The notes under the pieces are model-generated. The model searched no databases, was not told the DNA's origin, and saw only the letters and a list, made by a program, of their open reading frames with translations. From Pacificispira spongiicola (lineage in GTDB: Bacteria > Pseudomonadota > Alphaproteobacteria > UBA8366 > Aestuariispiraceae), in assembly GCF_012926505.1 (NCBI RefSeq), contig NZ_JABBNT010000005.1, positions 372,001-436,000 on the forward strand: DNA of 64,000 nt, written 5' to 3'. A program made the position numbers and the translations under genes. Shown one piece after another: positions 40,225 through 59,262 of this stretch; within the stretch, counting starts at the first letter, position 1; each line of letters starts with the position of its first letter.

Positions 40225-41811
40225 ATGTCCGTTACAAGTGCCAACGATACGATGTACGAACTGTACGGTTCCGACGCGCGCCGCTCTGCTACGGAGCGCA
40301 GCAAGGACAAAGACCGTTCGCAGCAGGATGCCCAGACCGACGGCGGCACCGTCGCGTCGCAGTTCTCGGCCCTTCTCCAAAACCGCATGTCGAACAATTT
40401 CGGCTCCGCGCGCGTGGACCAGTCGCTGGAACTGCCGGAACGGGCGTCTTCCGATCGTCAGGAAGCCCCGGTCGTCGAGCGCCGCGACACATCCGAACGC
40501 CACGACGACCGCGATGACTATGAAAAAGCCGACCGTCCCGACGACGCCAATCGCGATCAGGCGGCGACCGCACCGATAACCGACCCCACCATCGAAAGCA
40601 CTCTGCCGACGACCACCGTCGAAACGGGCGAGGTAGATGCGCTCGCCGATACCGGGGACGCGCCGGTTCAGGCGCAAGCCGCCGCCGCGGCCCAATCCGG
40701 TAAGACGGAAACCAAGGACGGCGCCGCCAACCAGGCCGCCACGCTAAACGACGCCACGAAGAAGGCACCCAAGACAGAAGTCGCGGCCAATGCCGGCGAT
40801 GCGGAAGAAATTTCCCCCGAATTGACGGAAGCCGCGAAGGAAGCGGCGAAGAAAGGTTCCGGCAAGGCGCAGGTCACGGTGACCGACGCGGATGCAAAAC
40901 TGACGTCCCAGCCGCAAACCACGCTCTCCGCCAAGGCCGCCGTGGATGCTGCCGCCGGGGCTCGCAAGGCGCAGAACGCGGAAATGGTGGCGTCCGCCGA
41001 CGCGGAATCCGCCGCCGCCACGGAAGCCGAGGAAAACGCCAACACGATCTTCAACCGCGTCAAGGCGCAGAATACCCCGGCCGGTGCCAAGGCCGCCGAT
41101 GCGGCCGCAAATGCCAAGACCGATATGCCGACCGCCGACGCGCCGAAGGCCAACGCGCAGCAAACCCCGACTCCGGCCAACCAGAATACGCAGCCGGGTT
41201 TCGGCCTGAGCGGCATGGGCACCGCCGGCAAACAGACATCCGGCCTGACCGGCACGACGCAAAGCGGCATGACCGTGGATGGCGCGACCGGCGGCGCGGC
41301 TACGCTCGGCGAGAACAATGCCGTTCAGCAGCGCAGCATGCCGACGCAAACGCCAGCCAATGCGGCAGCCCGCAACGCGGCCATGCCGAACCAGGCCCTG
41401 ACCGACCAGGTCGCCGTTAATATCCAAAAGGGTGCCGCCCAGGGTCAGGACAAGATCACCATTCAGCTTCGTCCCGCCGAACTCGGCAAGGTCGAGGTCA
41501 AAATGGAGGTCACCCATGACGGCAAGATGACCGCCGTGGTGTCCGCCGAACGACCGGAAACGCTGGACATGCTGCGTCAGGACGCCCGCCATCTGCTGCA
41601 ATCCCTGAACGATGCGGGCCTGCAGGCCGATCAGAACAGCCTGAGCTTCTCGCTGCAAGGTCAGGACGCGGGCGGCAACCGCAGCGAAACCGGACAGAAC
41701 ATGGCGTCCGCCGAAACGATGGGGCCCGACGACGATCTGATCCAGTCCGGCTTCATCTTCGAAGAAACCGGCGGTTTCAAAGGCGACGGCCGCCTGGACG
41801 TCCGAATTTAA
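40225..41811 (+). CDS. fliK: Flagellar hook-length control protein FliK
   Basis: FliK measures the hook and switches export from hook to filament subunits. The 528-residue product has a long Ala/Asp/Thr-rich, low-complexity N-terminal region (about residues 1-385) and a compact C-terminal domain (about 390-480) with QGQDKITIQLRPAELGKVEVKMEV and QDARHLLQSLNDAGLQ, the Flg_hook domain. It begins the fliK-flgD-flgE operon. The opposite strand of the low-complexity part is open by composition only. Confidence 0.93.
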   Translation: MSVTSANDTMYELYGSDARRSATERSKDKDRSQQDAQTDGGTVASQFSALLQNRMSNNFGSARVDQSLELPERASSDRQEAPVVERRDTSERHDDRDDYEKADRPDDANRDQAATAPITDPTIESTLPTTTVETGEVDALADTGDAPVQAQAAAAAQSGKTETKDGAANQAATLNDATKKAPKTEVAANAGDAEEISPELTEAAKEAAKKGSGKAQVTVTDADAKLTSQPQTTLSAKAAVDAAAGARKAQNAEMVASADAESAAATEAEENANTIFNRVKAQNTPAGAKAADAAANAKTDMPTADAPKANAQQTPTPANQNTQPGFGLSGMGTAGKQTSGLTGTTQSGMTVDGATGGAATLGENNAVQQRSMPTQTPANAAARNAAMPNQALTDQVAVNIQKGAAQGQDKITIQLRPAELGKVEVKMEVTHDGKMTAVVSAERPETLDMLRQDARHLLQSLNDAGLQADQNSLSFSLQGQDAGGNRSETGQNMASAETMGPDDDLIQSGFIFEETGGFKGDGRLDVRI

Positions 41812-41851: not shown

Positions 41852-42559
41852 ATGAGCAATTACGCAGATGTTCTAGGCACATCGAACAACACCTCGCCGT
41901 CTTCCGGGGTGAATACGGTCAGCGCCCAACAGCTGTCCGCGATGTCCAGCCTGTCGGACAACTTCGACAACTTCCTGACCATTCTGACGACACAGTTGAA
42001 GAACCAGGACCCGTTGTCGCCCATGGAAACGACGGAATTCACCAACCAGTTGGTCATGTTCGCGGATCTGGAACAGTCCGTACGCCATAGCGGCCAGTTG
42101 GACGACCTTATCGGCCTACAGCAACAGAACGAAGCGGCGGCGGCTGTCGGATATCTCGGCAAGTCTGTTGTCGCCGATTACAACGAGGTCGATTTCCAAG
42201 GCGAGCCGGTTGAAATGACCTACAACCTTCCGGAAGAAGCGAAGGCGGCGGTGATGGAAATCTACGACACAGAAGGAAACCTCGCCGGGATCATCACCGG
42301 CCTGGAAACCGATTTCGGTGAGCACACCGTTACCTGGGAAGGCACCGACATCGACGGCGATCCGCTAGATTTTGGCGCCTATTCCTTTCAGGTCACCGCC
42401 GTGACCAAGGAAAACGAGGAAATCGAGCCGACCTACAAGACCCGCGGCACCGTAACAGGCGTCGAATATGCCGATGGAACGACGATGCTGAAGCTCGGCT
42501 CGTTCTCCGTCAATATCAATCAGGTTTTGGGAATCGAGGATCCGGAGACGGCTTCTTAA
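41852..42559 (+). CDS. flgD: Flagellar hook capping protein FlgD
   Basis: FlgD caps the growing hook. The 235-residue product has the N-terminal signature DNFDNFLTILTTQLKNQDPLSPMETTEFTNQLVMFADLEQ (in pieces, about residues 34-75) and the FlgD Ig-like/tudor domains (TYNLPEEAKAAVMEIYDTEGNLAG, TVTWEGTDIDGDPLDFGAYSF). GGGAGA precedes the ATG; flgE follows after 54 bases. Confidence 0.95.
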   Translation: MSNYADVLGTSNNTSPSSGVNTVSAQQLSAMSSLSDNFDNFLTILTTQLKNQDPLSPMETTEFTNQLVMFADLEQSVRHSGQLDDLIGLQQQNEAAAAVGYLGKSVVADYNEVDFQGEPVEMTYNLPEEAKAAVMEIYDTEGNLAGIITGLETDFGEHTVTWEGTDIDGDPLDFGAYSFQVTAVTKENEEIEPTYKTRGTVTGVEYADGTTMLKLGSFSVNINQVLGIEDPETAS

Positions 42560-45071: not shown

Positions 45072-46718
45072 ATGGGTGGCTTGATAGAGACCATTCGCAA
45101 TATCGGGATGCCCCGGGTTACGGCGATCGTCGCCGGGACCGCGGTCATGTTGGGTCTTCTCGTCTTCCTGATCATCAACAGTTCCAAGCCGGAAATGGCG
45201 CTGCTCTACAGCGACCTGGACCCGCAAGCCACCAATCAGATCGCCGACCAACTGGCCAGCCGCCAGGTCGAATTCAGCATGTCGGCGGACCAGACCCGGA
45301 TTTCGGTGCCGCGCGATCAAGTTGCTCAGCTTCGCCTGGAATTCGCGGAACAGGGCCTAAGCGGCGCCATCGTCGGATATGACATCTTCGACCGCGACGA
45401 AAGCCTGGGCCAGTCAAGCTTCACGCAGGAAATCAACAAGCTGCGCGCGCTGGAAGGCGAGCTTTCCCGCACCATCGCGTCCATCGACAATGTCCGCGGC
45501 GCCCGCGTCCATATCGTCATGCCGCGCCGAGAAGTCTTCACCCGCGAACCGCAGCCGGCCACCGCCTCCATCATCATCAAGATGAAGGGCGCGCAGCGTC
45601 TGGATTCCAACCGTACGGCGGCGATCCAACAATTGGTCGCCACGGCGGTGCCGCAGCTGGACCCGTCCCGCATCACCATCATCGACGATCGCGGCACCCT
45701 GCTGCATGGCGGCGGCGACGCCGAAGATGGCCCGATGAGCGCGACCAACATCGCCGACATGCGCTCCGGCTATGAAAGTCGTGTCGGCAGCAAGATCACC
45801 GAAATGCTGGAAAAGGTCGTCGGCGTCGGCAAGGCCCGGGTCGAGATCACGGCGGAAATGGATTTCTCTCAGGAAGTTCAGAACATCCAGTCCTTTGACC
45901 CGGAACAGCAGGTACTCGTTTCCTCCCGCGAGGTCGAGGAAGTCCAGCAGTCGCAGGAACAGGCCCAGGATAGCGTCACTGTCGGCAACAACCTGCCGGC
46001 CGCACCGGGCATCGACGGCGGCGCCGGGGGCAACACCGACTCTCGATCCAAGACCGATGCCATCCAGAACTTCCAAACCGGCAATACGAAAACCGAACGC
46101 ATCGTGCCGCCGGGTCGGATCGAACGTCTGTCGGTCGCGGTCGTGGTTGATGGTGTTCGCCTTGAAGACGGCACCTATCAGCCGCGCACGGACGAAGAGA
46201 TGGAAGTCCTGCGCGAACTTGTGGAATCGGCTGCCGGTATCGATCGCGGCCGCGGCGACCAGATCACCATCCACAATCTGCGCTTCGAGGAAGTCCCCGT
46301 CTTCGAGCCGCTGGACGAAGAACAGCTGTTCGGCATCCCCTTCCCGCTGTCGAGCCTGCGGAACTTCGCGCAGCCGCTCTTCGCCCTGATCGCGATCATT
46401 CTGGTGGCCCTGATCGTCGTCCGCCCGCTGATGACCCGCTTCTTCGACATGAAGCAGCAGGAAGCGGCAGCCCGCGCCGCGGCGGATCAGCCTACCATGA
46501 TCACCGACCAATCCGGTGGTATGATGGGGGGCGACATGATGGGCGGCGATATGGTGCCGCATGAAGGCGGCGGTGAATTCGACGCCATGATCGACATCGC
46601 CCATATCGAAGGCCGGGTGAAGGCATCCTCGTTGAAAAAGATCGGCGAAATCATCGAGAAACACCCGGAAGAGGCCGTGTCCATCCTGCGCAGTTGGATG
46701 TATCAGGAATCGAACTAG
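45072..46718 (+). CDS. fliF: Flagellar MS-ring protein FliF
   Basis: FliF forms the MS ring in the inner membrane around the export gate. The 548-residue product has two membrane segments (about residues 16-36 and 436-456), the YscJ-like ring-building domains (LYSDLDPQATNQIADQL, RARVHIVMPRREVF-like) and GARVHIVM, KTERIVPPGRIERLSVAVVVDG in the periplasmic part. The cytoplasmic C-terminal tail contains an unusual Met/Gly-rich stretch (MMGGDMMGGDMV) before the FliG-binding end (VSILRSWMYQ). It heads the fliF-to-flhG operon. Confidence 0.96.
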   Translation: MGGLIETIRNIGMPRVTAIVAGTAVMLGLLVFLIINSSKPEMALLYSDLDPQATNQIADQLASRQVEFSMSADQTRISVPRDQVAQLRLEFAEQGLSGAIVGYDIFDRDESLGQSSFTQEINKLRALEGELSRTIASIDNVRGARVHIVMPRREVFTREPQPATASIIIKMKGAQRLDSNRTAAIQQLVATAVPQLDPSRITIIDDRGTLLHGGGDAEDGPMSATNIADMRSGYESRVGSKITEMLEKVVGVGKARVEITAEMDFSQEVQNIQSFDPEQQVLVSSREVEEVQQSQEQAQDSVTVGNNLPAAPGIDGGAGGNTDSRSKTDAIQNFQTGNTKTERIVPPGRIERLSVAVVVDGVRLEDGTYQPRTDEEMEVLRELVESAAGIDRGRGDQITIHNLRFEEVPVFEPLDEEQLFGIPFPLSSLRNFAQPLFALIAIILVALIVVRPLMTRFFDMKQQEAAARAAADQPTMITDQSGGMMGGDMMGGDMVPHEGGGEFDAMIDIAHIEGRVKASSLKKIGEIIEKHPEEAVSILRSWMYQESN

Positions 46719-46827: not shown

Positions 46828-47844
46828 ATGCGTATTCGCGACGACTATCGTAGCCTCTCAGGCCCCGAAAAGGCGGCGATGATGATGCTTGCCATCGGCG
46901 AAGACAACGCCGTCAAGCTCTTTACCCATATGGATGACGAGGAGATCCGCGAGATCTCCCAATCCATGGCGAATTTGGGCACGGTCAGTTCGAACCTTGT
47001 CGAACGTCTGTTCGTCGAATTCGCGGAACAGATTTCGTCCACCGGCTCCCTGGTCGGGTCCTACGAATCCACGGAACGTCTGCTGCTTAAGACGTTGGAC
47101 CCGGAAAAAGTCGCGACCATCATGGAAGAAATCCGCGGTCCGGCGGGTCGTACCATGTGGGATAAGCTGGCGAATGTGAACGAGGTCGTTCTCGCCAACT
47201 ATCTGAAGAACGAATATCCGCAGACCGTCGCCGTCGTTCTGTCGAAAATCAAACCGGACCATGCCAGCCGCGTGCTTGCCTCCCTGCCGGAAAGCTTCGC
47301 GATGGAAGTCATCATGCGTATGCTGCGCATGGAGGCGGTGCAGAAGGAAGTTCTGGACGATGTCGAACGGACGCTGCGCAACGAGTTCATGACGAACCTG
47401 GCGCGGACGGCGCGGCGCGACAGCCACGAGATGATGGCGGAAATCTTCAACGCCCTGGACCGGAATACCGAAAACCGCTTCATGACGCTGCTGGAAGAGC
47501 GCAACCGCGACAGCGCGGAGCGGATCAAGGCCCTCATGTTCACCTTCGAGGACCTTCAGAAACTCGATCCCAGCGGGGTTCAGACGCTGCTGCGCAATGT
47601 CGACAAGGACAAGCTGGGCACGGCGCTGAAGGGATCGTCGGAACAGATGAAGGAACTGTTCTTCTCCAACATGTCCGAACGCGCGGCGAAGATCCTGCGC
47701 GAAGACATGAACGCATTGGGGCCGGTCCGCCTGCGCGACGTCGACGAGGCGCAGATGGAAATGGTGAACTTGGCCAAGGATTTGGCCGCCAAGGGCGAGA
47801 TCGTGATCTCCGAAGGCGGCGCCGAAGACGAACTGATCTATTGA
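46828..47844 (+). CDS. fliG: Flagellar motor switch protein FliG
   Basis: FliG couples the stator to the rotor. The 338-residue product has all three domains: N-terminal ([22 protein letters not shown]), middle with the EHPQ-like motif replaced by [19 protein letters not shown], and C-terminal torque helix region ([35 protein letters not shown] in pieces). The charged torque residues are present. It lies 109 bases after fliF. Confidence 0.97.
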
Positions 47845-47857
47845 TCGGAAGGAGCGT

Positions 47858-48685
47858 ATGGCAATCCCTGCAAAAAGCGCAGACATGAAACCTTTCCTGT
47901 TCGATCGTGCCTTCGACGATTACGGACGGGAGGTGAAGTCGCGTGAGCAGATCGCGGCGGAAAAGGCGGCCAAGGAAGCGGCGGAAAATCCGGAACCGGC
48001 GGAACCCGAGATCGAGCTGATCTATTCCGAAGACGATATCACGGCGTTCAAGCAGGAAGCCTATATGGACGGTCACGCGGACGGATTCCGCGAAGGCCAG
48101 ACCGAGGCCCTGGAGACGATCGAGAAGAACCTGAACGACCTGCTGGAACGGATCGTTCCGCTTGTCGGGTCCTTGGCGTCGGAACAGAAGCTGGCGAACG
48201 AACGGGCCCAGGCCAACATGGCCCGGATGGTGCAGGCCCTGATGTCGAAGCTGATGCCGGTTTATATCCGCGAACACGGCGCGGACGAGGCGTTGGCCGT
48301 CGTTTCCGATTGTCTGGCGGAGTTGCAGGACGCCGGACGCCTGACCGTCTTTCTGTCGGAAGAAACGATGGATCAATTGGGCGAACGCCTGGACCGGGTG
48401 GTACAACGCGTCGGCTTCGAAGGACAATTCCGCGTGCTGGCCGACGATACGATGGGCCCGTCCGACATTCGGGTCGATTGGGGCGCGGGCGGCGCCGAAC
48501 GCCATTACGATTCCATTCGCGGCGATATCGATGCGGCAATCGACCGTGCAGTTTCCCGCGTCGAGGCGGAAATCGCGGAACGCGAAGAGGCCAAGAACGC
48601 CGCCGACGCAGACTTGGACGACGATTATGACGACGAAACCGACGATCCGGCGGATACCCGCCCTTCCCCGTCCGGTGAGGAGTAG
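47858..48685 (+). CDS. fliH: Flagellar export regulator FliH
   Basis: FliH binds the FliI ATPase and delivers it to the export gate. The 275-residue product has an acidic N-terminal third, the long GxxxG-poor helix with FKQEAYMDGHADGFREGQTEALETIEKNL (about residues 64-92), and a C-terminal domain (VQRVGFEGQFRVLADDTMGPSDIRVDWGAGGAERHYD) matching FliH. It is followed by an acidic tail. FliI and FliJ are 9 kb away on the other strand. Confidence 0.88.
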   Translation: MAIPAKSADMKPFLFDRAFDDYGREVKSREQIAAEKAAKEAAENPEPAEPEIELIYSEDDITAFKQEAYMDGHADGFREGQTEALETIEKNLNDLLERIVPLVGSLASEQKLANERAQANMARMVQALMSKLMPVYIREHGADEALAVVSDCLAELQDAGRLTVFLSEETMDQLGERLDRVVQRVGFEGQFRVLADDTMGPSDIRVDWGAGGAERHYDSIRGDIDAAIDRAVSRVEAEIAEREEAKNAADADLDDDYDDETDDPADTRPSPSGEE

Positions 48686-48690
48686 AAAAT

Positions 48691-49143
48691 ATGGCTGACG
48701 AAACAGACGATCCCGAAAACGGCGCGGCAGAGCCGGACGCGGACGACACCGATATGGCCGCGGCCATGGCCGCCGAGGCCGCGGAATCCGGCAAGAATGC
48801 CGACAATTTCGATCTGAAGGAATTGGGCGACGGCGTCAGCACGGACGACTATCTGGACCCGCGCGCCGCCGATCTGGCCGTACCCACCGGCGCCCGCGAC
48901 CTCGAGGCGGTTTACGAAATTCCGGTGCAGGTCGCCGCCGTGCTGGGTAAATCGTCCATGCAGGTCAGCCAGTTGTTGAAACTGGGGCGCGGCGCCGTGG
49001 TCGAACTCGACCGTAAGGTCGGAGAAGCGATCGACATCTACGTGAACAACCGCCTTGTCGCGCGTGGCGAGGTTGTCCTGGTGGACGACAAGCTGGGCGT
49101 GACCATGACGGAAATCATCAAATCCGACAAAACGCAGACCTGA
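48691..49143 (+). CDS. fliN: Flagellar motor switch protein FliN
   Basis: FliN is the bottom-ring subunit of the C-ring. The 150-residue product has an acidic Ala/Glu/Asp-rich N-terminal part (about 1-70) and the SpoA domain (VYEIPVQVAAVLGKSSMQVSQLLKLGRGAVVELDRKVGEAIDIYVNNRLVARGEVV in pieces). The usual N-terminal tryptophan motif (xEWAxAL) of many FliN proteins is not present here, while two similar motifs occur in FliM. Confidence 0.95.
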   Translation: MADETDDPENGAAEPDADDTDMAAAMAAEAAESGKNADNFDLKELGDGVSTDDYLDPRAADLAVPTGARDLEAVYEIPVQVAAVLGKSSMQVSQLLKLGRGAVVELDRKVGEAIDIYVNNRLVARGEVVLVDDKLGVTMTEIIKSDKTQT

Positions 49144-49202: not shown

Positions 49203-50039
49203 ATGGCATTGCAATCGGATCAAAGCCGTTCAGGAGAACGGCCGCTGACACAGCCCTCCACCCGGGGGTCCGTGGATCTGGCGACCATCCTGGGGCTGAT
49301 CGGCGCCGCCGCACTGGTCGGATCAGCGATCGTTCTCGGCGGCAGCCCGTCCTCCTTTGTCGACTGGCCGTCCGTTCTGATCGTCATCGGCGGCACGTTC
49401 GGCGTGGTCACGGCCTGTTTCTCGCTCCGTGATATCGCGGAATCCGCACGCATCATCGGACGCGCCTTTTTCCGCAGCAACCTGGATGCGGGCGAGGCTG
49501 CGCTACAACTGCTGCAACTGGCGCAGATCGCGCGATTCCGGGGTGTCCTGGCGATCCAGAACTATATGCCCGCCGTGGAAGACCGCGAAATGCTGCGCGC
49601 CGGGTTGGCGATGGTCGTGGACGGAACGCCGGGCGAAGATGTGGAACGCATCATGCGGCGGGAGGTGCAGTCGACCGCCCAACGCAGCGCGCGGGCGGTT
49701 TCGATCCTGAAGAAGGCCGCTGAAATCTCCCCGGCGATGGGGCTGATCGGGACTCTGGTCGGCCTGATCCAAATGCTGGCCAACCTGGACGACCCGAATT
49801 CCATCGGCCCGTCCATGGCGGTCGCGCTGCTGACGACCTTCTATGGCGCCTTGCTGTCCAATATGGTTTTCACCCCGCTGGCGGCGAAGCTGGAACGCAA
49901 CGCCGCGGAGGAAATGATCCTGAACCAACTCTATGTCATGGCGGCGGCGTCCATCGGGCGTCAGGAAAATCCGCGCCGCCTGGAAATGCTGTTCAACACC
50001 ATCCTGCCGCCGTCGGCGCGCATCGACTATTTCGGGTGA
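49203..50039 (+). CDS. motA: Flagellar motor stator protein MotA
   Basis: MotA forms the ion channel with MotB. The 278-residue product has four membrane segments (about 26-46, 52-72, 172-192, 203-224) with the stator landmarks SVLIVIGGTFGVV and AAEISPAMGLIGTLVGLIQML, and the cytoplasmic loop between TM2 and TM3. It resembles polar-type MotA/PomA proteins. No motB is in the window, so the partner must lie elsewhere. It lies between fliN and flbD. Confidence 0.9.
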   Translation: MALQSDQSRSGERPLTQPSTRGSVDLATILGLIGAAALVGSAIVLGGSPSSFVDWPSVLIVIGGTFGVVTACFSLRDIAESARIIGRAFFRSNLDAGEAALQLLQLAQIARFRGVLAIQNYMPAVEDREMLRAGLAMVVDGTPGEDVERIMRREVQSTAQRSARAVSILKKAAEISPAMGLIGTLVGLIQMLANLDDPNSIGPSMAVALLTTFYGALLSNMVFTPLAAKLERNAAEEMILNQLYVMAAASIGRQENPRRLEMLFNTILPPSARIDYFG

Positions 50040-50043
50040 CGTT

Positions 50044-51447
50044 ATGAAACTTCTGATCATCGGCACACTGGAAGGGCATATGACGACGGCCAGCCAAATC
50101 GCGATCAAGCGCGGGGCGAAGGTCGCGGCCGTCGATTCCATCGATCAGGGGCTGGAGCATCTGCGCAACGGCAAGGGCGCGGATGTAGTTCTGGTCGATG
50201 TTCGGCTGAACCTGGAACGCTTCTGCAAGGCGCTGGAATCCGAACGCATCAACACGCCCGTCGTCGCCTGCGGCATCGAGGGCACCGACGCTGCGACCGC
50301 TGCCGGCGCCATCCGGTCGGGCGCGAAGGAATACCTGCCCCTCCCCCCGGACCCGGACCTGATCGCGGCGGTTTTGGAAGCCGTGGCCGAAGAAAGCACC
50401 AGCATCATCCATCGCGACCCGGCGACGCAGCGCGTCATCAAGCTGGCGGATCAGATCGCGCCGTCCGATGCTTCCGTCCTGATCACCGGCCAGTCCGGGA
50501 CGGGGAAGGAAGTCATGGCGCGTTATCTGCACGCCAAGTCTCGCCGCGCCGCTGGAAGCTTCGTTGCCGTCAACTGCGCCGCCATTCCGGAAAACCTGCT
50601 GGAAAGCGAATTGTTCGGGCATGAGAAAGGCGCGTTTTCCGGTGCCATCGCCCGGCGTGTCGGCAAGTTCGAGGAAGCCAATGGCGGCACCCTGCTTCTC
50701 GACGAAGTTAGCGAGATGGACCCGCGCCTTCAGGCAAAACTGCTGCGCGCCATTCAGGAACGGGAGATCGACCGGGTCGGCGGCTCGAAGCCGGTTAAGG
50801 TGGATGTCCGCATCCTGGCGACGTCGAACCGGAACCTGCAGGAAAGCGTGAAGTCCGGCGACTTCCGCGAGGATTTGTACTATCGCCTGAATGTCGTGAA
50901 TCTGTCGCTGCCGTCGCTGGCGGAACGCCCGCAGGACATCCCCCTATTGGCGGATCATTTCGTCAAAAAGTACACGGAAGCCAACGGCATGCCCGTTCGC
51001 GCCCTGTCGGCGGACGCCAAGGCGATGCTGCAGACCTATCACTGGCCGGGCAATGTGCGTGAACTGGAAAACACGATGCATCGCGCCGTGCTCCTGGCCG
51101 GCGGCGACGAAATCGGAACGGAGGCGATTATGCTGACCGAAGCGCCCCAACAGGCCCACGCCTCGACACCGGCCCCGAAACCCGCGTCGGAAAGCACCGG
51201 CATGGACGCCGCCCCTGGCGGCATGCCCGGCGGCGTCGATCCTGCCGCCGATGCAAATGCCGTTGGGCTGGTCGGACGCACTGTCGCGGATGTCGAACGC
51301 GATCTGATCATCGACACGTTGGGCCATTGTCTCGGCAACCGGACGCATGCGGCGAATATCCTGGGGATTTCGATCCGAACATTGCGAAACAAGCTGAAGC
51401 AATATTCCGAAGAAGGATTTGCTGTCCCGGCTCCCGGTGAGTCCTGA
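50044..51447 (+). CDS. flbD: Sigma-54-dependent flagellar regulator FlbD
   Basis: FlbD activates late, sigma-54-dependent flagellar genes and represses early ones in Caulobacter. The 467-residue product has a degenerate receiver domain (about 1-110, Asp52 in VLVDVRLN present, the acidic pair near residue 8 missing), the AAA+ domain with Walker A TGQSGTGKE, the sigma-54 contact motif GAFSGA at 196-201 (usually GAFTGA), FEEANGGTLLLDEV and WPGNVRELEN, and a C-terminal Fis-type HTH (THAANILGISIRTLRNKLKQY). FliX (5553) is the expected partner. Confidence 0.95.
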   Translation: MKLLIIGTLEGHMTTASQIAIKRGAKVAAVDSIDQGLEHLRNGKGADVVLVDVRLNLERFCKALESERINTPVVACGIEGTDAATAAGAIRSGAKEYLPLPPDPDLIAAVLEAVAEESTSIIHRDPATQRVIKLADQIAPSDASVLITGQSGTGKEVMARYLHAKSRRAAGSFVAVNCAAIPENLLESELFGHEKGAFSGAIARRVGKFEEANGGTLLLDEVSEMDPRLQAKLLRAIQEREIDRVGGSKPVKVDVRILATSNRNLQESVKSGDFREDLYYRLNVVNLSLPSLAERPQDIPLLADHFVKKYTEANGMPVRALSADAKAMLQTYHWPGNVRELENTMHRAVLLAGGDEIGTEAIMLTEAPQQAHASTPAPKPASESTGMDAAPGGMPGGVDPAADANAVGLVGRTVADVERDLIIDTLGHCLGNRTHAANILGISIRTLRNKLKQYSEEGFAVPAPGES

Positions 51448-51545: not shown

Positions 51546-53672
51546 ATGGCGGAAACGGGCGATACCAAGAAAAGCTCCGTAACCCGCATCGGGGGCGATG
51601 CGGGCGATCGCCTGCGTTCCGCTTTCACCAGTTCGGAATTGCTGCTGCCCGTCGGGATCATGGCGATCCTGGTTCTGCTGCTGATCCCGTTGCCGACATG
51701 GCTTCTGGACCTGTCGCTATCGATCTCGATCACGATTTCCGTCCTGATCCTGATGACGGTTATCTTCATCGTCTCGCCGTTGGAACTGACCAGTTTCCCG
51801 ACAATCCTGCTGATCGCGACCATGTTGCGGCTGGGGTTGAACGTCGCCTCGACACGCCTGATCCTGTCCGAAGGACATACCGGCACGGACGCCGCCGGAC
51901 AGGTTATTCAGGCCTTCGGCGGCTTTGTTGCCGGGGGCAACTATGTCATCGGGGTAATCGTTTTCGCCATCCTGGTGCTGATCAACTTCATCGTCATCAC
52001 CAAAGGTGCGGGCCGTATCGCGGAAGTCGCCGCCCGTTTCACCTTGGACGCGATGCCCGGCAAACAGATGGCGATCGACGCCGATATGTCGTCCGGCCTG
52101 ATCAACGAGGATCAAGCCCGCGCCCGCCGTAAGGAATTGGAGTCGGAAAGCTCCTTCTTCGGGGCCATGGACGGTGCGTCGAAATTCGTGCGCGGCGATG
52201 CGATCGCCGGTCTTCTGATCACCTTTATCAATATCATCGGCGGCATCATCATCGGCGTCGTGCAGCGTGACATGTCCCTGGCCGACGCGGCGGAGAACTA
52301 TACCCTGCTGACCATCGGGGACGGTCTGGTCAGTCAGGTGCCGGCGCTGATCGTATCCGTCGGCGCGGGTCTACTGGTAACCAAGGCGGGGGTCAGCGGC
52401 GCGACCGACAAAGCCCTGTTCGGACAGCTATCCGGCTATCCCAGCGCTCTGGGCATGGCGTCGGGGATGCTATTGCTGATGGCGGCGATTCCGGACCTGC
52501 CCGCCTGGCCCTTCCTGATCATGTCGCTTGCCGCCGGGGCGGGCGCTTTCTTCGTGTCGCAGGGCAACGCCCGCCGGAAGGTAGAGGAAGAAACCAAGGT
52601 CCTGGAGCAGGAAGCCGCAGCGGAGATGGCGCCGAAGGAGGAACCGATTTCGGCGGCGCTGCAAATCGACCTGATCCGGCTGGAACTCGGCTATGGGCTG
52701 TTGCCGCTCATCAATGCGTCGCAAGAACACAAACTGACGGACCAGATCAAATCCCTGCGCCGCCAACTGGCGGGAGATTTGGGCTTCGTCATGCCCGCTG
52801 TGCGCATTCAGGACAATCTGCAGCTTCCGGCCAATACCTATGTCATCCGCGTGAAGGAGATCGAGGCCGGACGCGGGGACCTGCGGCCCAATATGCAGCT
52901 GTGTATGGATCCGCATGGGGAAAAGATCTCCCTGCCCGGCGAGGCCACCGTGGAACCGACATTCGGTCTGCCCGCCGTTTGGATCCAGGAAAACCAGCGC
53001 GAAGAAGCGATGTTCCGGGGCTATACCGTCGTGGATAGCGCCACCGTGATCACCACCCACATCACCGAAATCATCAAGGACAACATGTCGGAACTGTTGT
53101 CCTATTCCGAAACGCAGAAGCTTCTGGACGAACTGCCGCAGGGACAGCAGAAACTGGTCAGCGACCTGATCCCCAACCAGATCGCCCTGGGCGCGGTCCA
53201 GCGCGTGTTGCAGAACCTGCTGAACGAACGCGTGTCGATCCGCGACCTGCCGACGATCCTGGAAGGCATATCCGAGGCCGTCGGCTATACACGCAATTTG
53301 ACAAACATCACCGAACATGTCCGCAGCCGCCTGTCACGTCAGATATCGGACGCGAATACCAACGATTCCGGCTACGTCACCCTGGTGACCTTGACGCCCG
53401 CCTGGGAACAGGCCTTCCTGGAAAGCCTTGTCGGTCAGGGCGACGAACGGCAATTGGCGATGGCACCGTCGAAGCTTCAGGAATTCATCGGTCTGGTCCG
53501 CACCGTTTTCGAACGTCAGGCGATGCAGGGCGAAACCCCGGCCCTGCTGGTCAGCCCGAATATCCGTCCCTATGTGCGGTCCGTGATTGAACGTTTCCGG
53601 CCCGTCACCGTGGTGATGAGCCAGAACGAAATCCATCCCAAGGCGCGGATCAAGACGGTGGACTCGATCTAA
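51546..53672 (+). CDS. flhA: Flagellar export gate protein FlhA
   Basis: FlhA is the large export-gate protein of the flagellar secretion system. The 708-residue product has eight membrane segments in the first 330 residues, the family signature (RIAEVAARFTLDAMPGKQMAIDADM at about residues 155-180), and the cytoplasmic domain (RLELGYGLLPLI, QIALGAVQRVLQNLLNERVSIRDLPTILEGI in pieces) that binds chaperones. Its length is normal. Confidence 0.97.
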   Translation: MAETGDTKKSSVTRIGGDAGDRLRSAFTSSELLLPVGIMAILVLLLIPLPTWLLDLSLSISITISVLILMTVIFIVSPLELTSFPTILLIATMLRLGLNVASTRLILSEGHTGTDAAGQVIQAFGGFVAGGNYVIGVIVFAILVLINFIVITKGAGRIAEVAARFTLDAMPGKQMAIDADMSSGLINEDQARARRKELESESSFFGAMDGASKFVRGDAIAGLLITFINIIGGIIIGVVQRDMSLADAAENYTLLTIGDGLVSQVPALIVSVGAGLLVTKAGVSGATDKALFGQLSGYPSALGMASGMLLLMAAIPDLPAWPFLIMSLAAGAGAFFVSQGNARRKVEEETKVLEQEAAAEMAPKEEPISAALQIDLIRLELGYGLLPLINASQEHKLTDQIKSLRRQLAGDLGFVMPAVRIQDNLQLPANTYVIRVKEIEAGRGDLRPNMQLCMDPHGEKISLPGEATVEPTFGLPAVWIQENQREEAMFRGYTVVDSATVITTHITEIIKDNMSELLSYSETQKLLDELPQGQQKLVSDLIPNQIALGAVQRVLQNLLNERVSIRDLPTILEGISEAVGYTRNLTNITEHVRSRLSRQISDANTNDSGYVTLVTLTPAWEQAFLESLVGQGDERQLAMAPSKLQEFIGLVRTVFERQAMQGETPALLVSPNIRPYVRSVIERFRPVTVVMSQNEIHPKARIKTVDSI

Positions 53673-53675
53673 GCC

Positions 53676-54665
53676 ATGCGCCTGAAAACTTTCCACGCAG
53701 ACAGCCTTCCCGCCGCCATGGAACTGGTCCGTCAAACCTTGGGGCCGAATGCGATCATCGTCGCAACCCATGAAGACGACGCCAATCGCGGCGCCCGCGT
53801 GACCGCCGCTATCGAACCGGAAGAACAGAATTTCGATTTTTTCAACGACGGTCCCTCGGAAGAAATCCTGGAAACGATCACGCGCATCCTGGAACAGCAC
53901 GGCACACCGCCGCCATTGGTCGACCGCTTGCTCGACGCGGCATCCGATACGACAGCGGAAACGGCAAAGGACACCCTGGCCCATGCCTTGGCGAAAGTTT
54001 TCACCTTCAAGCCGCTACCGGACAGGCCGGGGCCGCCGCCAATCATGCTGATCGGTCCGCCGGGCGTAGGGAAGACGGTATCCTGTGCGAAGCTGGCCGC
54101 CCGCATCGCGCTGACCCATGACAAGGACGACGAAACGCCTGTCGCGCTGATCGCGGCGGACCCGGTTCGCATCGGTGCGGTCGAACAATTGCGCGCTTAT
54201 GCCGACCGGTTGGGGGCGACGCTTTACGAGGCATCCGACGGCGCCGCGCTGGCATCCGTCCTCACCCGCATTCGCCGCAGCGAACTTGTCGTCATCGATA
54301 CGCCGGGAACCAACCCTTATCACCTGGACGAACTGGCACATCTGGTGGAATTGGCGGAAGCGGGAAAGACGGAAACCGTGCTGGTCCTGACCGCCGGACG
54401 AAACGCGGAGGAAGCCGCCGAAATCGCAGAGGCATTCCGACCCGTCGGCGCGACCCGCCTGATGACGACCGGCTTGGATATGGCCAAACGCCTGGGCGCG
54501 ATTCTGGCTGCGGCGGAGGCCGGAAATCTGGCGATTTCCGATGTCTCTCTGGCGCCGGAAATCGGTCAGGGACTGACGCCGATGGATGCCGGCGCCTTGG
54601 CGAAACTTTTGATACCCGAAGCAACTGCCGAACCGGCCAAGTCCGGCATCGGGGTGGGGGAGTAG
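53676..54665 (+). CDS. flhF: SRP-type GTPase FlhF
   Basis: FlhF is a GTPase that sets the polar placement of the flagellum. The 329-residue product has a short N-terminal helix region, an N domain, and the GTPase domain with G1 GPPGVGKT (about 127-134), AADPVRIGAVEQLRAYADRLG, G3 as DTPGTN instead of DTAGR, and G4 as TTGLDMAKRLG instead of TKLDE. The last two differ from the canonical family, as in other alphaproteobacterial FlhF proteins or beyond. It starts three bases after flhA. Confidence 0.88.
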   Translation: MRLKTFHADSLPAAMELVRQTLGPNAIIVATHEDDANRGARVTAAIEPEEQNFDFFNDGPSEEILETITRILEQHGTPPPLVDRLLDAASDTTAETAKDTLAHALAKVFTFKPLPDRPGPPPIMLIGPPGVGKTVSCAKLAARIALTHDKDDETPVALIAADPVRIGAVEQLRAYADRLGATLYEASDGAALASVLTRIRRSELVVIDTPGTNPYHLDELAHLVELAEAGKTETVLVLTAGRNAEEAAEIAEAFRPVGATRLMTTGLDMAKRLGAILAAAEAGNLAISDVSLAPEIGQGLTPMDAGALAKLLIPEATAEPAKSGIGVGE

Positions 54666-54671
54666 CGAGCG

Positions 54672-55424
54672 ATGAATGCCCAAGCGCCGAACAACAATCT
54701 GATCGCGATCGCTTCCGGCAAGGGCGGCGTCGGCAAGACATGGTTTGCCATCACGCTTGCCCAGGCCCTGGCCCGTTCGGGACGCAAGGTCCTGCTGTTC
54801 GACGGCGATCTGGGGCTGGCGAATATCGACATTCAACTGGGGCTGACACCGGAACGCGACCTTGCGCTCGCCATCGCGGGCAAATTGCGTATGACCCAAT
54901 GCGTCGAAAAGTTTGCAGCGGGGCCGTTCGACATCATCGCGGGCCGGTCGGGCAGCGGTTCGCTGGCCAGCCTGCCCACGCCCCGCATCGAGCGGATCGG
55001 GCGCGAGTTGGTCGCGCTAGCGGGCGGCTACCAACATGTGCTGATCGATCTGGGCGCCGGGGTCGACAAGACCGTCCAGATGCTGGCCGCGACCGCGTCC
55101 CGCACCTTGCTGCTGGTCAATGACGAGCCGACGTCCCTTACCGACGGTTATGCCTTCATAAAACTGGGATGGACGAACCATCCCGGCATGGATATCCGCA
55201 TCGTCGTCAACGGTGCGGAAAGTCAGGCGGCGGGTCAAAAGACCTACGATATCCTGTCACGGTCTTGCGAGAATTTCCTGAAGCGGAAACCGCCGCTGGC
55301 CGGGATCGTCCGGCGCGACAACCGTGTTCGAGACGCGATCCGGGCGCAACAGCCGCTGCTGACACGGTCCCCCACATCGGAAGCGGCATCGGATGTCGAG
55401 GCGATCGCCCGCTCCTTGCTTTAG
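54672..55424 (+). CDS. flhG: MinD-like ATPase FlhG (FleN)
   Basis: FlhG limits flagellum number together with FlhF. The 250-residue product has the deviant Walker A SGKGGVGKTWFAITLAQALA (about residues 14-33), the DGDLGLANIDIQLGL switch region, and a MinD-type body (VLIDLGAGVDKTVQMLA). It starts seven bases after the flhF stop. It is the last clearly canonical gene of the operon. Confidence 0.93.
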   Translation: MNAQAPNNNLIAIASGKGGVGKTWFAITLAQALARSGRKVLLFDGDLGLANIDIQLGLTPERDLALAIAGKLRMTQCVEKFAAGPFDIIAGRSGSGSLASLPTPRIERIGRELVALAGGYQHVLIDLGAGVDKTVQMLAATASRTLLLVNDEPTSLTDGYAFIKLGWTNHPGMDIRIVVNGAESQAAGQKTYDILSRSCENFLKRKPPLAGIVRRDNRVRDAIRAQQPLLTRSPTSEAASDVEAIARSLL

Positions 55425-55523: not shown

Positions 55524-57056
55524 ATGCAGACACCCATCGTACCGACAGCGGGCGGCACAGGGTCCGCCCCGGCGGCAAACGCCCCCCCCCTCCCTTCCGG
55601 CACGGCGACAGTCTCGCCGAGCCTCCCCCCAAGCCTTGCGCAAGCGCTGCAAAACGGCGCCACCCTGACCGCACAGGTCACGGCGAAACCCGCAGCGGGC
55701 CAATTGACGTTGTCCGTGCAAGGACAAACGGTGCAGGTGCAAACGCCCCTGCCCTTGCCGCCCGGCACAAATCTGGCCGTTGCATTGCAATCCGTCTCGT
55801 CCGGCGGTCAGGCGACGCTGTTCCTGCAACCGCAGAATCCGGGCGCGGCGCAGACCGGAACCGCGACGGCGGGGCAACAACCAGCCCCGCAAACGGCCCA
55901 AACCGCAGCCCCGCAGCCTGCCGTCGTCACGAATACCTCTGTCGGATCGGTCCTGTCGGGCACAATTACCGCCCCGCCGACATCTGCGACCTCGGCAACA
56001 GCGGCCGCAACCGCTCAAACAACACCGACGTCCTCCCCTTCCGCGCAAACGACCGTGAATACGGCAGCGCAACCGACCGGCGGCGGCACCCCCGCCCCGA
56101 CCGCACCGGCACAAAGCCCACTGCCGGTTCTACCCCCGGGAAGCGCCGTACAGTTGCGCCTGCTGTCCTTCGCCCCACCCGGCCAATCGTTGGCGGGTGG
56201 CACGCCGGGCACCTTCACCGGGACCGTCACCGGTCAAACGGGTAGTGGATCGGTATCCGTCCAAACACCGATGGGGACGGTCAATTTGACCATGCCGAAC
56301 CCGCCTCCTACCGGAACCCAACTGATGTTGGGGTTGGTCGGCACACCGAAAATAGCGGCCTTCGGGTCCGCCGCCGCGCAGGGGGCCGCCGCGCGCTATC
56401 AGGCGCTACAGGACGCCGTCGCCTTGCTGAAAGGCGGCGACCCGGCCCTGGCACAACGCATGACCCAATCGCTGCTGCCGCAGCCGAATGGACAAATGGG
56501 ATTGGCGGCTGTCTTTCTGCTCAGCGCCATGCGGCAGGGCGGCGCGGAGAAATGGTTGGGCGGGGACACGGCGCGCGGTATCGACGCCGCCGGGCGGGCC
56601 GCGGGAAAGCCGGGCCTGCTGTCGGAGTTGGACGGCGAGGTAACCCCGACGCATACCCGCACGAGGGACGCCGCCGGTCAGGATTGGCGCGTGACCTCCC
56701 TGCCCCTGATGAACGGCAATCAAGTCGACGAAATCCGTCTCTATACCCGCGACCGTCCGAAGGACGAGGAAAACGGTAAAGGCGGCGGCAAGAAGGAAGA
56801 GGCGAAACGCTTCGTCGTGGAAGCCAGTTTCAGCCATCTGGGGCCGATCCAATTGGACGGCCTGTCCCGCGACAAGAAGGTCGATGTCATGGTTCGCAGC
56901 CAACGCGCCCTGCCGCCGGAAGCCCGCGACGACATTCGCGGCCTGTTCGCCGATACCGTCAGTGCGCTGGGCCTATCCGGACAGGTTGAATTTTCCGTCG
57001 TGTCCCATTTCGACCTTGTTCCGAATGAAGACATCCCGCATGGATTGACGGTATGA
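55524..57056 (+). CDS. FliK-like low-complexity flagellar operon protein
   Basis: A 510-residue protein with a long Ala/Thr/Pro/Gly/Gln-rich first half (about residues 1-210) and a more ordered C-terminal part (about 285-510: RYQALQDAVALLKGGDPALAQRM, FVVEASFSHLGPIQLDGLSRDKKVDVMVRSQRALPPEARDDI in pieces). The final region resembles the C-terminal domain of FliK-type proteins. A true fliK is at 40225, so this would be a second, diverged relative. It is 99 bases after flhG; no strong ribosome-binding site was noted. Confidence 0.65.
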   Translation: MQTPIVPTAGGTGSAPAANAPPLPSGTATVSPSLPPSLAQALQNGATLTAQVTAKPAAGQLTLSVQGQTVQVQTPLPLPPGTNLAVALQSVSSGGQATLFLQPQNPGAAQTGTATAGQQPAPQTAQTAAPQPAVVTNTSVGSVLSGTITAPPTSATSATAAATAQTTPTSSPSAQTTVNTAAQPTGGGTPAPTAPAQSPLPVLPPGSAVQLRLLSFAPPGQSLAGGTPGTFTGTVTGQTGSGSVSVQTPMGTVNLTMPNPPPTGTQLMLGLVGTPKIAAFGSAAAQGAAARYQALQDAVALLKGGDPALAQRMTQSLLPQPNGQMGLAAVFLLSAMRQGGAEKWLGGDTARGIDAAGRAAGKPGLLSELDGEVTPTHTRTRDAAGQDWRVTSLPLMNGNQVDEIRLYTRDRPKDEENGKGGGKKEEAKRFVVEASFSHLGPIQLDGLSRDKKVDVMVRSQRALPPEARDDIRGLFADTVSALGLSGQVEFSVVSHFDLVPNEDIPHGLTV

Positions 57057-57481
57057 GCAAGACCGACGACATCACTGCCGCCCTGGCCAAAGACGCCGCT
57101 GACCTGAATGCGGCGCTGAACCGTCACGCGGAATTGGAGACCATCCCCAACCCGCTACCACGGGCGGATTATCTGTGCCGATTGAGCGGCACCGCCATGG
57201 AAGGCGCCGCCTTGATCGAACTGCGCTACGTTCCGGACAAGCTGCTGGTGCAGGAAGACGGTTTCGGCACATACCTCGCCGGACTCCACTCGCAAGAAAG
57301 TCTGGAAGCCCTGGCCGCCATCATTCTGGACGATCTGAACAACGAATTGGTGCCGCGCTTCCTGCAAATCCGCATCATGGCAAGCCGGAACACACTGGAC
57401 GCCGGGCACGCCATCCTGGTGGAAGACCGTCGCCCGCGCTGGGACAATCCGGCGCTATTGGCCCACCTGGCGCAGATCTAA
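57053..57481 (+). CDS. Small QueF-like (T-fold) protein in the flagellar operon
   Basis: A 142-residue protein that starts within the stop of the FliK-like gene (ATGA). Residues 39-110 align by eye with QueF, the nitrile reductase that makes preQ1: DYLCRLSG with SLCPVTG (Cys42 at the catalytic position), IELRYVPDK with IVIRYIPDK, and SLEALAAIILDDL with FHEDCVNIIMKDL (Glu85 at the substrate-binding Glu). The NADPH-binding motif ESKSLKLY of QueF is QEDGFGTY here, so reductase activity is doubtful. It ends four bases into the convergent fliJ. Confidence 0.6.
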   Translation: MSKTDDITAALAKDAADLNAALNRHAELETIPNPLPRADYLCRLSGTAMEGAALIELRYVPDKLLVQEDGFGTYLAGLHSQESLEALAAIILDDLNNELVPRFLQIRIMASRNTLDAGHAILVEDRRPRWDNPALLAHLAQI

Positions 57482-57903
57482 GCGCCGTCCTTACGGCGGA
57501 AGGCATTCAGTCCCATTTCATCCATGGCGATGCCTTCCTTGCGCTTCTCGTCTGCGGCTTCCGCCTCGTCGCGGTTTTGCTTGGCGATTTCGTATTTCTT
57601 CTGCTCCGCAAAGGCATCGGCAAGGGCGTCGCGGACGGTGTCGATCTTCGGCACCAATTCGCGCATTTCCGCGTCCAGCTTCTCCCGCCGGTCTTTCGCC
57701 CAGACCATGAAGGATCCGAACTGGCTGCCGAATTCGGGCTTTGCTCGGACCATTTCCGATTCCGACTCGATCCGTTCCGCCAGCGCGGCATAGTCGGCAT
57801 TGATGCGGTCTTCTTCGGCCAGCAGGACTTGCAGGGCGCGTCTCGCGTTATCGACACTGCGTCCCGCCAGACGGACGAGAGTATCCAGCGTATCCCCTGC
57901 CAT
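57478..57903 (-). CDS. fliJ: Flagellar export protein FliJ-like
   Basis: FliJ is the coiled-coil stalk that works with the FliI ATPase. The 141-residue product is almost entirely helical with strong heptads (DRINADYAALAERIESESEMVRAKPEFG, KKYEIAKQNRDEAEAADEKRKEG) and lies directly after fliI with a gap of 18 bases. The sequence family is weakly conserved, so the position counts for much of the call. Confidence 0.82.
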   Translation of the reverse strand: MAGDTLDTLVRLAGRSVDNARRALQVLLAEEDRINADYAALAERIESESEMVRAKPEFGSQFGSFMVWAKDRREKLDAEMRELVPKIDTVRDALADAFAEQKKYEIAKQNRDEAEAADEKRKEGIAMDEMGLNAFRRKDGA

Positions 57904-57921: not shown

Positions 57922-59262
57922 TTAGGCGGCGCCCGGATAGTCTTCGCCCAGCACCGCTGCCAACTCGGAATACCCCTGTTCCAGCGATGTCGTTTCGTTC
58001 TTCCCCTGGGCGATGAAGTCTTCCAGCGGCGTATTGAAAGAGATCGCCTCATCCACCGCCGGATCGGACCCTTTGCGATAGGCGCCCAACCGGATCAATT
58101 CCGCCATGTCGTCATAGGTGGCAAGTAGCCGGCGCGCGCGGTTGACGATCCGCGTCTGATCCTCGGTATTGCAGTCGGGCATGGTACGCGAGACGGAGCG
58201 CAGAATATTCACGGCGGGATAGCGGTTCCGATGCGCGATGGTACGATCCAACACGATGTGACCGTCCAGAATCCCACGCACTGCATCCGATATCGGCTCG
58301 TTATGGTCGTCGCCTTCGACAAGGACGGTAAAGAGGCCGGTAATCGTACCGATATCCGGTCCGGGCCCGGCGCGCTCCAGCAGACGCGGCAATTCGGAAA
58401 AGACCGTCGGCGTATAGCCCTTGGTCGCCGGGGGTTCGCCCGCCGACAGGCCGATTTCACGCTGCGCCATGGCGAAACGGGTGACGCTGTCCATCAAGCA
58501 GAGCACATCCTTGCCCTGATCCCGGAAATATTCGGCGACGGCGAAGGTCATATAGGCCGCCTGCCGCCGCATCAGTGCCGATTCGTCGGAGGTCGCGACG
58601 ACGACCACACTGCGCGCCAGGCCTTCTTCCCCCAGTTCATCCTGGATGAATTCCTGAACCTCGCGCCCGCGTTCGCCGATCAGGCCGATGACGATGACCT
58701 CTGCCTCGGAAAACCGCGCCATCATGGCCATCAGCACCGATTTCCCGACGCCGGACCCGGCAAATATCCCCATACGCTGTCCGCGGCAGCAGGTGGTGAA
58801 GGTGTTCAGACACCGGACGCCGAGATCGATCTTTCCGCCGATCCGCCGCCGTTTGTGCGCCGGCGGCGGGTCCCCCCGGATCGCCACGGCCTCCTCCCCC
58901 AAGGGCAGCGGGCCCAGACCGTCCACCGGGTCCCCGAATGCATTGATGACCCGTCCCAGCCATTCCCGGGTCGGATTGATCGTCGGCTGAGCGCTCACCA
59001 CGAATGCCTTGGTGCCCAACGCAACCCCTTCCAGCGCGCCGAAGGGCATGGCCAGTGCCCGTTTGTCGCGGAAACCCACCACCTCGCACGGAACGGTCTT
59101 GCCGCGCCGCGCCTGAAGCATGCAACGGTCGCCGATGGACAGATGCCCCTCCACGCCTTCGATTTCGATCAGCATGCCCTGCACCGCCGCGACACGTCCG
59201 TAGACCTGTCTGTCGGATACTTTCGACAAGTCGGCGATCAGGAAATCCAAGAGGCTCGACAT
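57922..59262 (-). CDS. fliI: Flagellum-specific ATPase FliI
   Basis: FliI is the hexameric ATPase of flagellar export, related to F1-ATPase beta. The 446-residue product has Walker [21 protein letters not shown] (about residues 163-182), [57 protein letters not shown] (in pieces), and the C-terminal helical domain. It is divergent from ctrA across a 163-base region and followed by fliJ. Confidence 0.97.

Follow-up and report, generated by a model that had tools for sequence, protein, structure and literature searches.

A predicted T-fold protein of the QueF branch, lacking QueF catalytic residues, is encoded in flagellar gene clusters of Alphaproteobacteria

Results

Organization of the locus

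The window analysed here is a 64,000-nt stretch of Pacificispira spongiicola contig NZ_JABBNT010000005.1. As originally predicted, it contains an open reading frame of 142 residues, designated QFL, which starts inside the stop codon of the preceding gene, X, with the sequence ATGA forming a -4 overlap. The gene assignments also agree with the prediction that QFL closes the run from fliF to flhG: the order on the + strand is fliF, fliG, a 275-aa ORF, fliN, a MotA/ExbB-type gene, flbD, flhA, flhF, flhG, X and QFL. The fliJ-fliI genes are convergent to QFL, the 3' ends sharing 4 bases. No metabolic genes were assigned next to QFL within the window by Pfam or NCBIfam. The features are as follows.

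40225..41811, + strand: canonical fliK, Flg_hook 65.3 bits against a cut-off of 29.8
41852-42559, + strand: flgD, after canonical fliK
45072-46718, + strand: fliF
46828-47844, + strand: fliG
47858-48685, + strand: 275-aa ORF at the usual place of fliH, no Pfam match
48691-49143, + strand: fliN
49203..50039, + strand: MotA/TolQ/ExbB-type gene
49933..51447, + strand: flbD-type sigma-54 activator; the true start is probably further downstream because the model match begins at residue 38
51546..53672, + strand: flhA, flagellar export gate
53676..54665, + strand: flhF, SRP-type GTPase
54672..55424, + strand: flhG, MinD/ParA-type ATPase
55524..57056, + strand: partner gene X, 510 aa, 4-base overlap (ATGA) with the QFL start
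57053..57481, + strand: QFL, QueF-derived protein with a predicted T-fold, 142 aa; Glu85 retained, but neither the catalytic loop nor the QueF motif nor the RGG (NADPH) segment; EDR(Q/R)PxWDNPxLLxxL conserved as a C-terminal motif
57478..57903, - strand: fliJ, convergent to QFL
57922..59262, - strand: fliI, export ATPase

Relationship to QueF

QFL matches the QueF models of Pfam (PF14489; E 7.9e-5, 23.2 bits) and NCBIfam (QueF-II, TIGR03139; E 3.7e-6, 26.8 bits), in neither case reaching the curated cut-off (27.3 and 86.9 bits, respectively). Both models match all 24 of the 24 QFL family members at a limit of E 1, with best E values of 4.4e-9 (Pfam) and 8.9e-11 (NCBIfam). A profile search of the PDB with QFL finds QueF 4fgc at E 7.8e-6, and hhalign aligns QFL with QueF over 113 columns at a probability of 98.9%. 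The resemblance to QueF first noticed by eye is thus beyond chance. The T-fold that had been proposed is supported by the predicted monomer model, whose fold matches solved T-fold proteins; the YVPDK strand is recovered in both the profile and the family alignments.

The similarity to FolE is weaker, the best FolE in the PDB profile search having an E value of 0.12 versus 7.8e-6 for QueF. FolE models match weakly a single member of the 24 in Pfam (E 0.11) and a single one in NCBIfam (E 0.039), and the PHROGs GTP cyclohydrolase family matches six of them (best E 4.8e-4). In the tree, QFL forms a group separate from QueF, on a long branch with modest support. From profiles and model together, we are nearly certain that QFL belongs to the QueF branch of T-fold proteins.

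A canonical queF carrying SLCP..TGQPDF and PRGG was found elsewhere in the same genome (G000:C14), distinct from QFL, which rules out QFL as the only QueF of the genome. Two further weak PF14489 matches are, by their sequence, what we take to be FolE genes.

Loss of the catalytic features

In PMC5372742, any sequence without Cys55, Asp62, Glu97 or the QueF motif is regarded as non-QueF, the motif E(S/L)K(S/A)hK(L/Y)(Y/F/W) is assigned to NADPH binding, and Glu97 is described as anchoring the substrate. Of these four defining features, Glu97 alone remains in QFL, as Glu85. In both profile alignments, Cys55 faces a 9-residue gap in QFL, and Asp62, the general acid/base, lies inside that gap in one alignment and just past it in the other. 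The QFL family alignment contains no conserved Cys and, as judged by eye, no conserved Asp between D39 and Y59. The Cys21/Asp pair of QueF-L, Cys21 being the equivalent of Cys55 (PMC5485725), is missing at the same gap. In 24 of the 25 QueFs compared, the D of DY and the Y of YVPD are 29 residues apart; the 25th falls outside the pattern by which the spacing was measured. For QFL the spacing is 19 or 20 in 34 rows and 22-32 in seven, counted over 41 rows with the truncated L052 left out. The position of the NADPH-binding QueF motif reads QEDGFGTY and the motif is missing from the family alignment, in line with the loss noted originally.

The original prediction had also placed Cys42 at the catalytic position, and this did not hold. 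Besides the gap facing Cys55, Cys42 is the first residue of strand 42-48 of the predicted model, and its column is not conserved (Val 20, Cys 11, Ser 5 and others 5 in the same 41 rows), all 11 rows with Cys belonging to the window's own family. A single-sequence phmmer alignment does pair Cys42 with Cys55, leaving the DY motif unaligned, and a pairing of this type may be the source of the earlier assignment. A conserved catalytic Cys in the QFL family is accordingly not supported. The sequence comparisons make it highly probable that QFL is not a QueF reductase, and naming the family so by homology would be wrong.

Conservation of Glu85

The assignment of Glu85 to the substrate-binding position was borne out, since it occupies the Glu97 column in two profile alignments and is present in 42 of 42 rows. 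D94, N96, V100, R102, D125, P128 and W130 are likewise identical in all 42 rows. The predicted model places D94, N96 and R102 where helix 84-99 ends and strand 103-110 begins, away from the Glu85 end of the helix.

In three loci (L170, L172 and L174 of genomes G188, G085 and G106), X is followed by cheR and this by a QFL that is highly diverged yet retains the Glu. These far relatives score 33.9-50.1 bits and have lost most of DDLNNELVPRW and of the C-terminal motifs. Read by eye, the alignments show that the three have in common the Glu, the Pro-Asp within the (V/I/L)PD strand and the proline of the C-terminal QP; N96, R102, D125 and W130 are missing in all three and D94 in one. Glu85 is therefore not alone in its deep conservation, which it shares with Pro128 and the strand Pro-Asp. 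On sequence evidence, it is among the few most deeply conserved QFL residues and the sole one with a known ligand role in QueF. Its conservation may also be due to folding.

Gene neighbourhood

A survey of gene neighbourhoods, as suggested originally, ties QFL to flagellar operons at most loci: in 41 of 44, or 38 of 41 distinct ones, three genomes being counted twice, it has neighbours from the window's flagellar set. The three loci that lack such neighbours, L014, L017 and L102, come from genomes with FlhA, in that of L014 (G760) as three pieces, the best of which is below the cut-off.

The searches returned 69 distinct QFL loci, among which Azospirillum and the window's family are over-represented. 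In 65 of them, an upstream ORF ends at the QFL start; the gene directly upstream is X in 55, a MinD-type flhG in 7 and cheR, itself after X, in 3. An exact 4-base overlap is present in 34 of the 69 (29 with X, 5 with flhG). The four loci without such an upstream ORF are L014, L017, L077 (the same place as L102) and the truncated L052. No fusion of QFL with X or flhG was found in the 65 loci with an upstream gene, and where QFL lies in a long open frame, this frame is not that of the upstream gene.

At one locus (L098:7820-9664, - strand), a 615-residue frame just before QFL carries an FlhF-type SRP54 GTPase domain and an FlhG-type MinD domain, possibly representing an FlhF-FlhG fusion.

Distribution

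Strong QFL matches (>=74 bits) are found, among the matches listed, in at least 33 of 387 alphaproteobacterial genomes, a lower bound because the class scan missed G085 and G106. The other matches listed score at most 50.1 bits, and most of them, like canonical QueF, reach no further than profile position 104; some of these loci, including far relatives, were inspected individually. QFL is present in 24 of the 39 genomes nearest to the window. In a scan of 387 genomes of the phylum, 30 pass E 1e-9. Six of these, each from the class of the window, are QFL; the other 24 carry the canonical TGQPDF motif; no QFL outside Alphaproteobacteria was found at this threshold. There was no match in 50,697 phage records, and 72,556 plasmid records gave 12 matches, all from Azospirillum. 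In the laboratory strain Azospirillum brasilense Sp7, the QFL orthologue lies at NZ_CP012915.1 1285983-1286333.

Of the 33 strong-QFL genomes, 30 contain FlhA (E 1e-100 or better), compared with 195 of the 354 others (Fisher p 2.8e-5, kinship ignored). One of the three without it, G143, has a piece of flhA at a contig end. The other two, G141 and G086, have X-QFL beside fliJ-fliI, and their missing FlhA is perhaps attributable to assembly gaps. Co-occurrence with FlhF was dropped as a measure, its model matching 370 of 387 genomes, probably because it also picks up related GTPases.

A metagenome-assembled genome titled Mesoflavibacter sp. (CP051228.1, L001) contains an alphaproteobacterial-type flagellar operon and a QFL with 63% identity to that of the window in the matched segment. 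Mesoflavibacter is a genus of Bacteroidota, and the record may be mislabelled.

The preceding gene X

X consists of a low-complexity N-terminus and a conserved C-terminus of ~230 aa, and occurs in 127 of 387 alphaproteobacterial genomes. The original prediction called it FliK-like, a label that is weakened here. At the profile level the identification as FliK finds no support: Flg_hook (PF02120) is found in 0 of 27 X homologues, searches of Pfam, NCBIfam and PDB sequences gave nothing significant for X, and the comparison with a FliK alignment (14 of 16 fetched FliK loci, two being without an extracted sequence) was negative. A canonical fliK is present at 40225-41811. The model of the X C-terminus is nevertheless nearest to FliK-type switch domains, at a low score; X could possibly have a FliK-type switch fold despite the canonical FliK in the genome.

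X was not found in 8 of the 33 strong-QFL genomes listed. Reading downstream of 40 X loci, hand-picked among the 102 genomes that carry X and lack a strong QFL match, we found QFL missing in 37 (one of them, in G282, ending at a contig edge) and a far relative behind cheR in three. Neither protein is therefore strictly dependent on the other. X, which has no gene name, is widespread in the flagellar clusters of Alphaproteobacteria.

Discussion

Sequence comparison and modelling establish the homology of QFL to QueF, its predicted T-fold, the loss of the catalytic loop and of the QueF/NADPH motif, the invariance of Glu85, and the linkage with flhA-flhF-flhG-X. Since the catalytic parts are lost and the gene travels with flagellum genes, QFL probably contributes to the assembly or control of the flagellum; that it has some flagellar role seems to us very likely. 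We suppose, with somewhat better than even confidence, that a T-fold protein of the QueF branch lost catalysis and became a non-catalytic, dedicated flagellar accessory in a subset of Alphaproteobacteria.

B. subtilis QueF and QueF-L are decamers, the QueF sites lying between subunits (PMC5372742, PMC5485725). By analogy, QFL probably assembles as a ring, perhaps with Glu85 at the subunit interface either anchoring a guanine- or pterin-like ligand or holding the interface together. It would reside in the cytoplasm, close to the export gate or to the FlhF/FlhG machinery at the cell pole, and act, perhaps with X, as a factor of flagellar assembly or export control. Of these elements, cooperation with X falls a little short of an even chance, and we are similarly hesitant about a ligand still being bound.

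A purely structural role, in which a QFL ring would scaffold X, FlhA or FlhG, with Glu85 serving fold or interface only, is the best of the alternatives, albeit an unlikely one. Three of the four QueF-defining features are gone, the strongly conserved C-terminal EDRQPxWDNPxLLARL looks like an interface or partner-binding tail, and coupled synthesis is suggested by the 34 of 69 loci that overlap X or flhG by 4 bases. Moreover, Pro61-Asp62 and Pro128, for which we know of no ligand role, are as deeply conserved as Glu85. What weighs against a mere scaffold is that Glu85 persists in the far relatives lacking most of the C-terminal motif and of the DDLNNELVPRW helix, and that the corresponding position anchors the substrate in QueF (PMC5372742).

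It is also conceivable that QFL is an enzyme of new chemistry, in which Asp94, Asn96, Arg102, Asp125 and Trp130 would take the place of the Cys/Asp pair and act on a purine or pterin anchored by Glu85, for example to produce a flagellum-related signal. In favour of this are the seven further invariant residues and the very diverse reactions of the T-fold superfamily (PMC5485725). However, the three far relatives, all of which retain Glu85, lack four of the five proposed residues, and one of them also lacks Asp94; in the model Asp94, Asn96 and Arg102 are away from the Glu85 end of the helix, and the window offers no metabolic neighbours. We therefore consider this improbable. That QFL is a bystander, an old queF duplicate in a flagellar operon working in tRNA or folate metabolism, might be argued from its homology to QueF and, more weakly, FolE and from the three loci outside flagellar clusters, but is very improbable given the missing catalytic residues, a flagellar linkage that holds over deep divergence (36-66% identity) and a genome already equipped with canonical queF and two FolE genes.

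Returning to the non-catalytic accessory that we favour, a bolder form of it would be a sensor ring derived from a tRNA-modification enzyme that is no longer active. It would use the Glu that once anchored the substrate to read a nucleotide of the guanine type (GTP, c-di-GMP or a deazapurine) and, with a FliK-fold X, would time the export switch or set flagellum number. This is a speculative proposal with a small chance of being right in full. The invariant Glu85 offers a single-residue test of whether a purine-binding pocket has survived.

No QueF-like flagellar protein appears among the listed titles on QueF and the T-fold, flagella, FliK and Azospirillum (e.g. PMC12826043), a scope in which subscription papers are mostly not included. 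As far as these literature searches show, QFL is new as a family and in its context, within a known fold. If the flagellar role is true, a metabolic enzyme fold in a flagellar operon adds a component to a well-studied machine.

Among known systems, the type III switch domains of FliK and PscP (2rrl, 5cuk) are nearest to X only, through its model and at a low score, and canonical FliK differs from X in having Flg_hook. GTP cyclohydrolase I (FolE) is less similar to QFL in sequence than QueF is. The archaeal QueF-like protein QueF-L (5jyx/5k0p) keeps the Cys and the Asp (PMC5485725), whereas QFL has neither. A further close system is unimodular QueF (B. subtilis, 4fgc/4f8b/5udg; TIGR03139, PF14489), whose Cys55, Asp62, E(S/L)K(S/A)hK motif and RGG segment are all missing from QFL, and whose context is metabolic while that of QFL is flagellar.
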